In this document: in pieces, positions 4,002-12,670 of the stretch
Layout: every line of letters starts with the position of its first letter
Numbering within the stretch: position 1 is the stretch's first letter
Virus record (IMG/VR): IMGVR_UViG_3300047451_000094
Location: 1 to 20,298 of that record
Reading direction: 5' to 3' (one strand)
DNA length: 20,298 nucleotides
DNA from: a virus
Position numbers and translations under genes: made by a program
The notes under the pieces: generated by a model
Seen by the model: only the letters and a program-made list of their open reading frames with translations
Told to the model about the DNA's origin: nothing
Databases searched by the model: none

Positions 4002-4172
4002 TTAGTCATCGTATTCATCTTCCGGCTTTTCCACAAGCCCCAAGCCTTCGCAGCGCGGGCATTCAGCCATCCGATCCTCGAGGTAGCCGCCGCGCGTGTA
4101 GTCGATGACGGCCATCTCTTGAGGGTATTCGCCCTGACCTTCGCAGTCAGGGCATTCGATTGGGTCTATCAT
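4002..4172 (-). CDS. Small zinc-binding protein with two CxxC pairs
   Basis: 56 residues on the minus strand, from the ATG at 4172 down to TAA at 4002-4004. It starts MIDPIECPDCEGQGEY and later has AECPRCEGLGLVEKP, giving two CPxCEGxG knuckles 31 residues apart that should bind one zinc ion, much like half of a DnaJ-type cysteine-rich domain. The end is acidic (PEDEYDD). Its start overlaps the stop of the LexA-like gene by ATGA, so it is the last gene of the leftward operon, about 45 bases before the terminator. Such proteins are common in phages and usually unassigned; protein or nucleic-acid binding is plausible. It could be a regulator or host takeover factor, but no function can be given. 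Confidence 0.72.
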   Translation of the reverse strand: MIDPIECPDCEGQGEYPQEMAVIDYTRGGYLEDRMAECPRCEGLGLVEKPEDEYDD

Positions 4173-4378
4173 GATGCCAGCTTGAGGTGGCGGGACTTGC
4201 CCGCCTCCCGCTCAAGGTGGCCCTTCGCCACAAGCTGACTGATCAGCGAGTAGGCTGCGGTCTTGCTGCGCCCGGTCCTGTCCGCCACCTCCTGCACTGT
4301 GGGCGCATACCCATAGCGCTTGATGTGGCGCGTGATCATTGCCAGCACGGTGTGCTGCTTCGATGTCAGCGGCTTCAT
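4169..4378 (-). CDS. LexA-like winged-helix DNA-binding protein (no peptidase domain)
   Basis: 69 residues from the ATG at 4378, which has GGAGG eight bases upstream; the frame extends further but into the exonuclease gene. The sequence MKPLTSKQHTVLAMITRHI, GYAPTVQEVADRTG and a following AAYSLISQLVAKGHL match the N-terminal domain of LexA. There L-T-x-x-Q opens helix 1, APTxxE opens helix 2, and the recognition helix precedes a wing (LEREAGKSRHLKL). LexA itself continues for another ~130 residues with the self-cleaving Ser/Lys domain, which is absent here. It is therefore a stand-alone DNA-binding module, possibly competing at SOS-type sites of the host or regulating phage genes. It overlaps both neighbours by ATGA, so it is translated with the exonuclease. 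Confidence 0.82.
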   Translation of the reverse strand: MKPLTSKQHTVLAMITRHIKRYGYAPTVQEVADRTGRSKTAAYSLISQLVAKGHLEREAGKSRHLKLAS

Positions 4379-5337
4379 GATCTCGCCTCCTTCACTGTCA
4401 GCGTCTTCTGCCTTATCGTTGTCTCCGGCTTCGCGGCGACTGTCTTCGCCGGTTGCGCTTTGGTGCGCCGCATCGGCCACTTGATGTAGAAGCTGGACCC
4501 GTCAACCGTGACGCTGCCCTCCTCGTGGTTGCCGAGTATCTCCTTGAGGCCAGCCTCGGCGATGTCGATCTGCTGCTCGGCAGCCTTCTTGTCGGCCTTG
4601 GCCTGCACCAGCATCTCCGCGTAAAATTCGCCATCCTCAATCTCGTTCAGATCGAGCGGCGGCGCACCATCGTCAACGCGATCCCACGCCACGTTGCCGT
4701 CAGCCGAGGTATAGACCTCATACCAGTCGATATCGCGCTTGCGGCGCTCGAACTCGTGGATGGCGTCAATTATGTCATCACGCATCGCATCGTCTACCCG
4801 GTACAGGAATATCCGAAGCTCATTACCACGATACAGGACGCACACGGCGCCCCAAGCGTAGCCGGTACACATTAGCTGCCCCTGTAGCTGTATTGGGCCT
4901 CTGTGCGGCGCCGGCACGTCCTCAGCGGCATTCGCCGTGACCTTTGCCTCCAGTACGCCAAGGCCGGTGGTGTCAACGCTGCCACCCTGCGGCACATAGA
5001 TGCCGTTGGCCGGGTCGTGCGTGAACGTCTTGCCGCCCAGAGCCTGACCATCCAAAGAGCAGGCGAATGGCAGGTGGTCGTGGAAGATCGCCTCGTCAAA
5101 CTCCGTCTCCAGATGCGTCAGGGACAGGCGCTTGGCTGCTTCGGTGAGGATCACACCCTCAAGCGTGTCGCCCCAGAACATCGGCTCGTTCTGCGGCAGG
5201 TAGTCAGGCGCGTTCCCGGCCTCAGCTTCGATGGCTCTCTTGAGCGCCTCGTTGGGCGTTGCGTACGGGCTGCGGTTTAGGATCACCGGCAGTATTGACG
5301 CGGTGACGATGTTGTCTGGTGTTTTCTTACCTACCAT
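4375..5337 (-). CDS. YqaJ-type viral recombinase / exonuclease (PD-(D/E)XK)
   Basis: 320 residues from the ATG at 5337, preceded by AAGGAGA; a TTG at 5376 would overlap the upstream gene and lacks a ribosome site. The motifs are those of lambda-exonuclease-like YqaJ proteins: MFWGDTLEGVI with Glu60, LPFACSLDG with Asp96, GVLEAKVT with Glu130-x-Lys132, then IQLQGQLMCTG, the glutamine-rich motif following the catalytic strand. These enzymes degrade one strand from a double-strand end, producing single strands for annealing. The C-terminal ~90 residues form a charged helix (residues 240-270) and a Lys/Ala/Pro-rich end, possibly partner-binding. It is the core of the leftward early operon and probably works with the ssDNA-binding candidate at 9219. 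No annealing protein of the RecT or Erf type is recognised in the window. Confidence 0.85.
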   Translation of the reverse strand: MVGKKTPDNIVTASILPVILNRSPYATPNEALKRAIEAEAGNAPDYLPQNEPMFWGDTLEGVILTEAAKRLSLTHLETEFDEAIFHDHLPFACSLDGQALGGKTFTHDPANGIYVPQGGSVDTTGLGVLEAKVTANAAEDVPAPHRGPIQLQGQLMCTGYAWGAVCVLYRGNELRIFLYRVDDAMRDDIIDAIHEFERRKRDIDWYEVYTSADGNVAWDRVDDGAPPLDLNEIEDGEFYAEMLVQAKADKKAAEQQIDIAEAGLKEILGNHEEGSVTVDGSSFYIKWPMRRTKAQPAKTVAAKPETTIRQKTLTVKEARS

Positions 5338-6976: not shown

Positions 6977-7315
6977 CTATACCGCAGCCTCAAGGCGCTT
7001 GGTCTTGGCCTTCCAGATACCGGCCTGCCGCCGGACGCCGTTCATCTCGGCGCGGTGTTCGCGCTTGATGTTGACGACCACGTTCTCTTTACTGGCCACC
7101 TCGGCGCGTAGGTCGGCGTTCTCCTGCTTGAGCGCCTCGACCTGCCGGTGCATGTCGTTGACCCGGTCAGCCATCTTGCGGTGGCCAGTGCCGGCCTCGT
7201 CAACGGCGAGGCGAAGGGTGGACAGCAGACGGACATAGTCCGGGGTTACGATTGAGCCGGTCATGATCTTGTTGTCCGCCTCGGCGATGATCTTCTTGTA
7301 CGTTTCGATATTCAT
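6977..7315 (-). CDS. Coiled-coil early phage protein
   Basis: 112 residues from the ATG at 7315, with AAAAGGAGAGACCA upstream; in-frame codons above this lack a ribosome site. The first ~30 residues (MNIETYKKIIAEADNK) are helical. From about residue 45 to 95 runs a long charged coiled coil (MADRVNDMHRQVEALKQENA, DLRAEVASKENVVVNIKREH), and the end is basic (WKAKTKRLEAAV). No catalytic motif or membrane segment is seen. Coiled-coil proteins of this size are frequent in early phage operons and often act as scaffolds or inhibitors by binding a host protein, but there is nothing here to identify a partner. Confidence 0.72.
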   Translation of the reverse strand: MNIETYKKIIAEADNKIMTGSIVTPDYVRLLSTLRLAVDEAGTGHRKMADRVNDMHRQVEALKQENADLRAEVASKENVVVNIKREHRAEMNGVRRQAGIWKAKTKRLEAAV

Positions 7316-7907: not shown

Positions 7908-8111
7908 GTGTCTGAAATAAAACCAACATTGCTGCGGCTCCGAACATCGACCACCGCCGCGCTCAAGGAAGAATTGCAGTATTCGGCGCACCGAAGCATG
8001 TCCGCGCTGGCTGACGAGATCATCGAGATGGGGCTGCGGGTCAAGGCGCGGGAGCGGGCCGAGGCCAGTAATGCTGAGGCCGCGACCAAGCTGGCGGGAA
8101 GTGTGCGCTGA
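7908..8111 (+). CDS. Ribbon-helix-helix (Arc/Mnt-like) transcription regulator
   Basis: 67 residues from the GTG at 7908, preceded by AGGAGAG. The order is a short basic strand (PTLLRLRTST), helix 1 (TAALKEELQYSAHRS) and helix 2 (MSALADEIIEMGLRVKARER), with the HRSMSALADEII junction typical of Arc/Mnt repressors. Two chains pair their strands and insert them into the DNA major groove. An Ala-rich tail follows. It is the first gene of the rightward early operon, and its own promoter region contains small inverted repeats, so it probably represses one or both divergent operons. Its stop overlaps the next ATG by one base (TGATG), coupling it to a nuclease gene. Confidence 0.82.
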   Translation: MSEIKPTLLRLRTSTTAALKEELQYSAHRSMSALADEIIEMGLRVKARERAEASNAEAATKLAGSVR

Positions 8112-9969: not shown

Positions 9970-11817
9970 ATGACACAGAATATTGCGGCACATGCCGAGC
10001 GCATCGCCAAACATTATTGGGGCGAGCCAAACAAGAAGCTGTCGAAGAAGGGGTTGTTGCGCTGGGGCAACGCTGGCTCTAAGGAGTTGGACATCCAGCG
10101 CGGGGTTTATTTTGACTTTGAGGAAAATCACGGCGGGGGTGTGGTGGAAATCGTGCGCCGATATGGGCGCCAGACGATTACCGGCTCGGTGGCCGACACG
10201 TTGCAACGCGAATTCGGCATAACGAAACAGGCGGCGGACTCGATGCAGCCCGCTAAGTACATCGAGAAAATCTACGAATATTATGACGCTGACGGCGACC
10301 TGCGGTATCAGGTGCTGCGCTATCAACCCAAGTCGTTTAGGCAGAGACGCCCGGACGGCAGGGGTGGCTGGCTGTGGAACATGAACGATGTGGAGCCTCT
10401 GCCGTACAATCTGCCAGAGATGATGCTGAACCCAGACGCACCAGTGTTCATCGTTGAGGGCGAGAAGGCGGCGGAACGGTTAATGAAGCTGGGCCTAGTT
10501 GCGACAACGTCACACGGCGGGGCCGGCAAGTGGTCTGACGCACTGGCGCCATATTTCGATGGGCGCAACGTGGTGGTGCTGGCTGACAATGACAATGCGG
10601 GGGAGCGACACGCCGATCAGGTGGTGCGCTCAATCTGGGGCAGGGCCAAGGCGGTCAAGCGTGTTGAGCTTGCCGGGTTGCCGGAGAAGGGCGATGTAGT
10701 GGACTGGCTTTTTCAGGGCGGTACTGTTGAGAAGCTGATGGAGGTGGTCAGGGCCACGCCGGCGCTGGATAATGTGCCAGCAGAGGCAGAGGCCGCTGAC
10801 GAGGCTTCAGAGGCGGAGGAAGAGGGCGTCCTCAAGCCTTATAAGCTGATGGATCAAGACGCGGTGTGGTCGATGCCGCCGGTCGAGTTTCTGGTTGACG
10901 AGCTTATCCCTGAGCGTAGTTTTTCGATGATCTACGGTGCGCCGGGCAGCGGCAAGTCGTTTCTGGCGATTGATATGGCGCTCAGTGTGGCACACGGCGT
11001 GGACTGGCAGGGCAAGAAGGTCAAGCAGGGTCCAGTGCTTTACATAGCGGGTGAGGGGATGGGTGGATTTGGCAAGCGCTGGAAGGCGTGGAGCATGCAC
11101 CACAAGCTCGACAAGCGCCCGGAGATGTACCTTCTGCCAACGGCGGTCAACATGCTGGACAGCGAGGACGTGGCGCGGCTCAGGCTCACCATCGAGGAAA
11201 TGGACAGGCAGTGGGCGCTGGTCATCGTGGACACGGTGGCTCGGTCTATCGCCGGGGCTGACGAGAACGCGGCGCAGTCTATAGGCATGTTTGTGCAGTC
11301 GTGCGATGCCATCAGGGAGGTGGCGGGCGGCACTATGCTGGCGGTCCACCACAGCGGCAAGGACAGCAGCAGGGGCGCCAGAGGCAGCAACGCGCTGCTG
11401 GGCGCGCTAGACACAAGCATCGTGGTCGGCAAGCTGGACAGCGTGGTCACGATCAAGGTGGAGAAGCAGAAGGACGCCGAGCCGATTGACGAGATGAACT
11501 TCAACATGACGACCGTGCAGGTGGGTGTCACAGACACGTCTGTCGTGCTGGAGCGCACGGACGCGCCGGTGGATGCGCCCAAGCGCAGAAAGCCGCTGGC
11601 AGCGAGCCAGCAGAGGGCGTTGACGGCGCTACAAAACCTGTGTGCAGAGCGTGGTGTCAGGGTGCCGATTGGCGAGTGGCATAAGGCTCATGAGCGTGAC
11701 TGCCCCGACACACATACGTCTACACGCAAGACTGCGCGTGATGCGCTGGTGGATGGCGGTTTTGTGGTCATTGCGGACGGTATTTGCTGGATAAACAGTG
11801 AGTTAGGTGAGTTTTGA
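9970..11817 (+). CDS. Primase-helicase: TOPRIM domain fused to RepA-like AAA helicase domain
   Basis: 615 residues from the ATG at 9970 with AAAGGGA upstream. Residues 1-100 are a degenerate N-terminal region without zinc-binding cysteines. The TOPRIM domain spans about 158-245: FIVEGEKAAERL (catalytic Glu163) and VVVLADNDNAGE (Asp206, Asp208). An acidic linker follows (270-286). The RecA-fold ATPase spans about 300-500: GAPGSGKS (Walker A, 323-330), ALVIVDTVARS (Walker B, Asp421) and TMLAVHHSGK (His460/461). The RecA part resembles the AAA_25/RepA group rather than T7 gp4. The last 80 residues look like a winged-helix unit (QQRALTALQNLC, TARDALVDGGFVV). It should unwind the fork; true primase activity is uncertain because no zinc finger is seen. 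An iteron-like array follows directly downstream. Confidence 0.87.
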   Translation: MTQNIAAHAERIAKHYWGEPNKKLSKKGLLRWGNAGSKELDIQRGVYFDFEENHGGGVVEIVRRYGRQTITGSVADTLQREFGITKQAADSMQPAKYIEKIYEYYDADGDLRYQVLRYQPKSFRQRRPDGRGGWLWNMNDVEPLPYNLPEMMLNPDAPVFIVEGEKAAERLMKLGLVATTSHGGAGKWSDALAPYFDGRNVVVLADNDNAGERHADQVVRSIWGRAKAVKRVELAGLPEKGDVVDWLFQGGTVEKLMEVVRATPALDNVPAEAEAADEASEAEEEGVLKPYKLMDQDAVWSMPPVEFLVDELIPERSFSMIYGAPGSGKSFLAIDMALSVAHGVDWQGKKVKQGPVLYIAGEGMGGFGKRWKAWSMHHKLDKRPEMYLLPTAVNMLDSEDVARLRLTIEEMDRQWALVIVDTVARSIAGADENAAQSIGMFVQSCDAIREVAGGTMLAVHHSGKDSSRGARGSNALLGALDTSIVVGKLDSVVTIKVEKQKDAEPIDEMNFNMTTVQVGVTDTSVVLERTDAPVDAPKRRKPLAASQQRALTALQNLCAERGVRVPIGEWHKAHERDCPDTHTSTRKTARDALVDGGFVVIADGICWINSELGEF

Positions 11818-11862
11818 GGTTGATACGGCGTGGTGCGCCGCCGATACGGAAGTTGTTCTAGT

Positions 11863-11889
11863 TTGGATTTTTGGGTGATGGCGGATAAT
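11863..11889 (+). promoter_or_regulatory. Possible promoter within the iteron-like region
   Basis: TTGGAT (11863-11868) and GATAAT (11884-11889) are separated by 15 bases, shorter than the ideal 17. If used, the transcript would run through the direct-repeat part of the array into the gene at 12071. The match is moderate, so the call is tentative. Confidence 0.25.
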
Positions 11890-12000
11890 AGAACACGATA
11901 CGGGAAACTGTTTGAGACGCCTATCGTTATAAAACAGATAGTTAGGATAGCAATTCCCGTATCAACCGTATCGGTACGGAGTGTCCGTATCGGTGCGGTA

Positions 12001-12030
12001 CGGTACGGTCCCCCTATAGGGACCGTATCG
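12001..12030 (+). repeat. 12-bp inverted repeat (hairpin or cruciform) within the array
   Basis: CGGTACGGTCCC (12001-12012) pairs with GGGACCGTATCG (12019-12030), 12 bp with a single G-T mismatch, loop CCTATA. Each arm contains a member of the repeat family (GGTACGG left, CCGTATC right). It lies 40 bases before the ATG at 12071. Confidence 0.65.
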
Positions 12031-12070
12031 CCGTATTGGCCGTATCAGTATTTTGGTAGAGGAGGTGTTT

Positions 12071-12670
12071 ATGGCTGTTAGAAAGAGACCGAAGAAGGCG
12101 CCGAAGGGATTGGACGCTAGGTTCTATCCGAATGAGCGAGACGCGAGGAAGTGCCAGAACGCTCTGGTGGAATACGACAGGGTGGTCAGGTCGTATGAGG
12201 AGAATTGGGGCATCGACCGACTGCCCGGATTGGTGGATGCCGAAATGCGGGACCGCTGGTGGAAACAGTGGGACAAGCTGAACGCGGCGATTGAGAAGGG
12301 GTCGGGGCCAGAGGTTGAGCATGCGGTTGAGGTGACCATTCGGGCATGTGGCGTATTGGAGGCCCGAGCCATCGAGCTTGGGGCGAAGCCTCTCACCGGG
12401 GATCGGTGGGAGTGCCAGCTACCAGACGGCGGTGTGCTGGCGATTGTCAGGGATGCCGCCGAGGTGATGCCGGTGCATAGTGAGGGCAGGTACGATCAGG
12501 TGTACTGTATGGACGAGGTGGCGAAGATCATGCAGCAATGGCGGGCAGACGAGGCCGGCAAGCTGGCGGAGAGCGTGAAGGGCGTGTTTCCGGGTGCCGT
12601 GGTGGACAGCATCGAGAAGAGGGTGCCGACAGCCACGGAGGTTGAGTTGAACGATGAAATACCGTTTTAG
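12071..12670 (+). CDS. Phage protein of unknown fold with SSB-like C-terminal tip
   Basis: 199 residues from the ATG at 12071 with GAGGAGG five bases upstream; a GTG at 12053 is less likely. The N-terminus is basic (MAVRKRPKKAPKGLDARF). The middle is mostly helical with conserved-looking Trp pairs (DRWWKQWDKLNAAIEKG) and a segment GDRWECQLPDGGVLAIVRDA that reads as a small beta sheet. After VYCMDEVAKIMQQWRADEA comes a helix and the end VELNDEIPF. That last motif closely resembles the DDDIPF tip of bacterial SSB, the docking site for many replication and repair enzymes. A protein ending so may mimic SSB or join the replisome. It has no visible catalytic motif. Confidence 0.7.
   Translation: MAVRKRPKKAPKGLDARFYPNERDARKCQNALVEYDRVVRSYEENWGIDRLPGLVDAEMRDRWWKQWDKLNAAIEKGSGPEVEHAVEVTIRACGVLEARAIELGAKPLTGDRWECQLPDGGVLAIVRDAAEVMPVHSEGRYDQVYCMDEVAKIMQQWRADEAGKLAESVKGVFPGAVVDSIEKRVPTATEVELNDEIPF

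Follow-up and report, generated by a model that had tools for sequence, protein, structure and literature searches.

The window (the whole stretch of viral DNA analysed here, 20,298 nucleotides) contains a short gap between a primase-helicase gene and the next gene downstream, g12, and this gap is crowded with copies of one 7-mer. The locus raises the question of what these repeats do, and which protein reads them. Three neighbouring features define it:

Positions 9970-11817, + strand: primase-helicase gene, encoding an N-terminal and TOPRIM primase part, a RepA-type (AAA_25) helicase and a C-terminal winged helix.
Positions 11822-12046, no strand assigned: iteron-like array of eight GATACGG, three GGTACGG and one CCGTATT, in both orientations.
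Positions 12071-12670, + strand: g12, a conserved downstream gene of 199 aa with an acidic LNDEIPF tail and no co-variation with the array.

Iteron origins carry several copies of a short initiator-binding repeat in a noncoding region, and the gap holds eight copies of GATACGG and four variants within 225 bases. GATACGG lies on the + strand at 11822, 11843 and 11897, and on the - strand at 11957, 11966, 11985, 12023 and 12040, the latter copies being spaced by 9, 19, 38 and 17 bases; GGTACGG variants occur at 11973, 11997 and 12002, and the CCGTATT variant at 12031-12037. Our recount agrees with the initial annotation of this DNA in the numbers of GATACGG and CCGTATC copies, in both kinds of variant and in the CCGTATC spacings. 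That annotation also described the flanks as opposed: both orientations are indeed present, but there is no clean left/right split, because + strand GGTACGG copies lie among the - strand copies. The 7-mer is not equally dense elsewhere, a check that had been proposed for the array. The window contains 13 copies of GATACGG where 1.84 are expected, a number matched by none of 100 shuffles, and 8 of the 13 fall inside the array. Ranked against all 250-base stretches in the window, the array comes first (8 copies), the runner-up having 4 copies of another word. A 35.2-kb relative likewise has 13 copies of GATACGG, 8 of them in its own array.

The gap includes three further elements:

Positions 12007-12024, no strand assigned: central hairpin GGTCCC-CCTATA-GGGACC with a conserved core, CCCTATAGGG; its arms reach 12001-12030, into the flanking repeats.
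Positions 11914-11944, + strand: conserved AT-rich element GAGACGCCTATCGTTATAAAACAGATAGTTA, a feature of long-form arrays (about 250 nt).
Positions 11855-11894, no strand assigned: inverted repeat GTTCTA (11855-11860) / TAGAAC (11889-11894).

The 12-bp hairpin reported earlier within the array is real: CGGTACGGTCCC (12001-12012) pairs with GGGACCGTATCG (12019-12030), with one G.T pair, giving a stem-loop directly 3′ of the replication gene, as at pRN1-type origins. The core palindrome is found again in nearly all lineages, is usually CCCTA(TA)AGGG-like, and lies ~30-70 nt upstream of g12 in relatives. The AT-rich element is near-identical in five relatives (L002, L003, L005, L007 and L052) and partly present in two more (L055 and L008); it is confined to the long array form, and the short arrays of relatives have no obvious equivalent. 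It is a possible unwinding element or promoter. The resemblance of CTATAGGG to a T7-like promoter was judged by eye, and we rejected it since the rest of the T7 consensus misfits.

Scanning IMG/VR with the primase and g12 yielded over 100 loci. Every inspected relative with the order primase-helicase, gap, g12 (>50 distinct IMG/VR sequences) has an array in the gap; hence, relatives that keep the flanking genes also keep the array, as the initial annotation would predict, although the word varies. These words are short, occur in both orientations and differ between lineages. They include GATACGG, GGTACGG/GGTCCGG, TCGGAG, TCGTAG, TCGGATC, TGTGAT, GGTCAC, ACGTAG, GGTCGG, TATAAC, TCCGAT, TGTCCG and TCGCACG, among others, and form at least 13 repeat-word classes. 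An array directly 3′ of the same kind of TOPRIM/RepA-type primase-helicase is also present in at least nine named phages, which use seven different words between them: Rhizobium phages RHph_Y3_1 and RHph_N65, Idiomarinaceae phage 1N2-2, Alteromonas phages PB15 and XX1924, Salicola phage CGphi29, and Roseobacter phages CRP-811, CRP-823 and CRP-831. The array is absent from Caulobacter GB2A, Arthrobacter MellowYellow and Wolbachia WO, whose proteins are more distant. When the count of the commonest 6-mer was compared with 500 shuffles in each of 24 representatives, no shuffle reached it in 16, and 1 to 45 shuffles did so in the other eight; in a few lineages the array is statistically weak taken alone. 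Two relatives, L004 and L011, are one contig of 35218 bases that encodes primase residues 405-545 at both ends, which suggests a circular or terminally redundant genome of ~35 kb. The array is also missing where this module is replaced: phage C72C1, whose TerL is 73% identical, has a different replication module, with another initiator gene in place of the primase-helicase module, and the 19.4 kb that were read contain no such array. In C72C1 (L197 6896-7723), the 250 bases that start at 7101, within the annotated initiator gene, contain four copies of TGACACA, perhaps representing an origin within a gene, as in lambda O.

The primase-helicase product matches Pfam AAA_25 (3.8e-39) and phage primase PHROGs. 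Compared by sequence with solved structures, its sole match is RSF1010 RepA (3e-9), and its best Foldseek structural matches are T7 gp4 and RepA. Two parts of its C-terminus are relevant to the array:

Positions 11596-11805, + strand (codons 543-612): C-terminal winged helix, the proposed reader of the array, from an AlphaFold2 model and co-variation with the array.
Positions 11716-11754, + strand (codons 583-595): putative recognition helix TSTRKTARDALVD; the segment 581-596 correlates best with the array.

AlphaFold2 predicts a three-helix winged-helix domain at residues 545-608 (helices 545-561, 567-577 and 583-595; strands 599-602 and 605-608), preceded by a linker at 535-540 that is predicted with low confidence. 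On its own, the domain is likewise modelled with low confidence (pLDDT 59.5). Its fold matches are weak (best E 0.018) and include the winged helices of Cdc6, ORC and MCM; used as a query among the sequences of solved structures, it gave no match.

Three candidate readers had been put forward: the primase-helicase with its C-terminal winged helix, the product of the gene at 7908, and the product of the gene at 12071, i.e., g12. Comparison among relatives singles out the first, since the array co-varies with the winged-helix domain only. Between near relatives, differences in the primase gather in the last 80 residues if the word differs, and vanish there if it is the same. Consistent with this, sliding windows along the primase show an array signal that climbs only from about residue 520. 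Across 59 sequences, array distance correlates with winged-helix distance at a partial r of 0.655 (permutation p=0.001) once the remainder of the primase and g12 are controlled for. For pairs with a rest distance below 0.2, the correlation with array distance is r=0.93 for the recognition helix (581-596), compared with r=0.05 for g12 residues 2-40. For distant pairs (rest distance over 0.4) the recognition-helix correlation is weak, 0.2, since almost no two words match at that range. The visible exception among these pairs is the word TGTGAT, which goes with a KRRDxR helix in the far-apart lineages L101, L120, L149 and L059. Placed on trees, the 13 array classes require fewest changes with the winged helix (14), compared with 20 for primase residues 1-520 and 27 for g12; these counts are rough, being based on FastTree only and on classes from one clustering cut. 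The locus thus has what is expected beside an iteron origin, an adjacent putative initiator gene whose predicted DNA-binding domain matches the repeat type, with co-variation confined to the winged helix.

The other two candidates fail as readers. Copies of g12 that are 99%, and up to 99.5%, identical adjoin different arrays, and the 7908 product is near-identical in L101, L122 and L106 despite their different arrays. The latter (window 7908-8111) is a small Arc-like ribbon-helix-helix protein whose strand LLRLR is nearly invariant across very different relatives. Elsewhere in the window, 4169-4480 on the - strand encodes a winged-helix DNA-binding domain of the LexA type that lacks the protease part; its neighbour is a RecE/YqaJ-like exonuclease. 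For g12, searches of Pfam and PHROGs gave no match, and a pattern scan found no relatives in bacterial genomes; CRP phages have a counterpart that is 26% identical, and the C-terminal LNDEIPF tail is similar to the acidic tip found in single-strand binding proteins. Phage genes are mosaic, and part of the co-variation is linkage. However, the co-variation is one-sided, with the winged helix and not with the equally close g12; this serves as a control and speaks against linkage as the whole explanation. We conclude that the sequence comparisons argue strongly for direct binding of the array by the winged helix.

The DNA around the array suggests how specificity changes. We compared four pairs of relatives with different words (L133/L130, L141/L133, L110/L105 and L140/L134). 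As far as primase nt ~1600 their DNA is mostly 84-100% identical; across the winged helix and array, identity drops to about 30-80%, and it exceeds 90% again at g12. In the same-word pairs L133/L126 and L137/L141, the winged helix and array are the best conserved part, mostly 96-100%. Since identity drops over the winged helix and array only, these alignments indicate that the winged-helix codons and the array, which adjoin each other and are therefore inherited and exchanged jointly, move as one cassette of ~350 bp with sharp edges. Repeats also change in place. From the window to L055, all 8 of 8 units, whichever strand they lie on, have G in place of A as their second base; between the window and L052, the last G becomes A in 7 of 8 units; and between L096 and L114, three TCGGAG become TCGTAG while one copy is unchanged. 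The isolated roseophages CRP-811 and CRP-831 are a clean example of a joint change of winged helix and array: they have CTACAAA and GTATAAA, respectively, at the same unit positions around an identical core; their primases show 0-2 differences per 40 aa in earlier blocks, and 18, 10 and 6 in the last three.

Short inverted repeats are prone to turnover by slippage and template switching. Such events might homogenise the palindromic region neutrally, and the link to the primase tail would then reflect physical linkage in recombination, as the adjacency of the winged-helix codons would allow. We regard this as highly improbable: g12 is equally close on the other side (r=0.05), unit positions stay fixed while letters change, and the same word occurs with the same helix in distant lineages. 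We tentatively suggest, as a possibility somewhat short of an even chance, that these origins form an open-ended set of specificities under diversifying selection, exerted for example by satellites, co-infecting phages or origin-targeting defences; specificity would switch by way of the ~350-bp cassette or by in-place change of the repeats, while the core palindrome and the remaining replisome stay fixed.

Alternatively, the region between the primase and g12 might give rise to a large folded RNA, either a leader or noncoding, whose arms are formed by the repeats. In the window, whose array is of the long form, the + strand RNA of 11812-12070 folds at -108 kcal/mol (z -6.3), with 14 G-U pairs on the + strand versus 2 on the - strand, and the GTTCTA/TAGAAC stem is GTCCTA/TAGGAC in L008, a two-sided pair change. 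So strong a + strand fold counts against an origin, because repeats for a DNA-binding protein need no such fold. However, across 24 lineages the two strands fold similarly well, and most short arrays lack a G-U excess on the + strand; the strand preference is not consistent, and we rejected a structured RNA as the main explanation. Stems also leave unexplained why same-strand copies turn into the same new word, and why that word tracks a winged helix. A search of Rfam up to E=1 gave no credible match, the sole exception being an 18-bit chance match outside the array. We therefore consider an RNA very unlikely to account for the array, although the lineage of the window may have an additional function as RNA or promoter, to which the fold, the pair change in L008 and the AT-rich element would then be due.

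We propose that the array is a phage replication origin, and that the upstream primase-helicase is its initiator, with the C-terminal winged helix binding the repeats. We assign this reading a probability of roughly 80%. An origin had been suggested initially, and the position of the array beside the primase-helicase and its co-variation with the winged helix support that suggestion. By analogy with P4 alpha, SaPI Rep, pRN1 and PLE RepA, we infer that winged-helix binding would start replication at the array. The C-terminal winged helix would bind the 7-bp repeats in both orientations, and the bound winged helices would gather helicase rings around the central palindrome; AT-rich or hairpin DNA would then be opened, and the TOPRIM primase would lay the first primers. 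The repeats would set specificity, with a CCCTATAGGG-like core common to all specificities; our guess, again by analogy, is that this core is probably where opening or priming happens. GC skew, another proposed check, lends no support: in nine relatives there is no inflection at the array, and skew follows gene strand.

A multi-operator switch is another reading, since the array is followed directly by the ribosome-binding site of g12 and the genes appear to form an operon. In that case, g12 and later genes would be under the control of the winged helix of the primase-helicase, or of a host protein, with the origin elsewhere; binding by the winged helix would yield the same co-variation. Nonetheless, a replication enzyme seldom requires as many as 8-12 operator copies flanking a conserved palindrome, and known arrays 3′ of such genes are origins (PMC4234260, PMC7581432). 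We consider a switch alone unlikely; an origin and autoregulation can coexist.

The phages served by this proposed origin would be a widespread marine group, relatives of the CRP-822-type roseophages described recently in a paper whose main text never mentions repeats or an origin. A further question is why lock and key are swapped so often at a phage origin. PLE satellites offer one possible cause of origin change, nucleases aimed at origins (PMC8263062). These phages also offer many winged helices naturally paired with a DNA word, in some cases only a few residues and one base apart, so that a winged-helix recognition code becomes directly testable.

The origin repeats of phage P4 are those of ori1 and crr, and the helicase of its alpha protein belongs to SF3. 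As in the protein studied here, P4 alpha joins primase, helicase and C-terminal winged helix in one polypeptide, and its winged helix binds short origin repeats (PMC4234260). Here, the helicase has a RepA-type (AAA_25) RecA fold in place of SF3, the fold of the winged helix is a model prediction and its binding is suggested by co-variation; the array, which surrounds a conserved palindrome, directly follows the gene, and its specificity is exchanged. The origins of pRN1 (ORF904) and Bordetella phage BIP-1 share a primase-helicase-winged-helix protein with a stem-loop origin directly 3′ (PMC4234260), but that protein has an archaeo-eukaryotic primase and an SF3 helicase, and the origin is a single large stem-loop without iterons. 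In SaPI Rep/ori and SCCmec Cch2, the helicase uses its C-terminal domain to recognise iterons that directly follow its own gene (PMC7581432), although the initiator helicase works with a separate primase and belongs to another helicase family. RSF1010 has a RepA-type helicase and iterons plus hairpins (the ssi hairpins), but divides among three proteins (RepC, RepA and RepB′) what is one polypeptide here. In PLE RepA/ori, the DNA-binding domain co-varies with the origin while the remaining protein is conserved, and experiments showed that only cognate pairs replicate, making the binding domain and origin a functional module (PMC8263062); that system has two module types and an N-terminal binding domain, lacks a primase-helicase and belongs to a satellite, whereas the array described here belongs to a phage.
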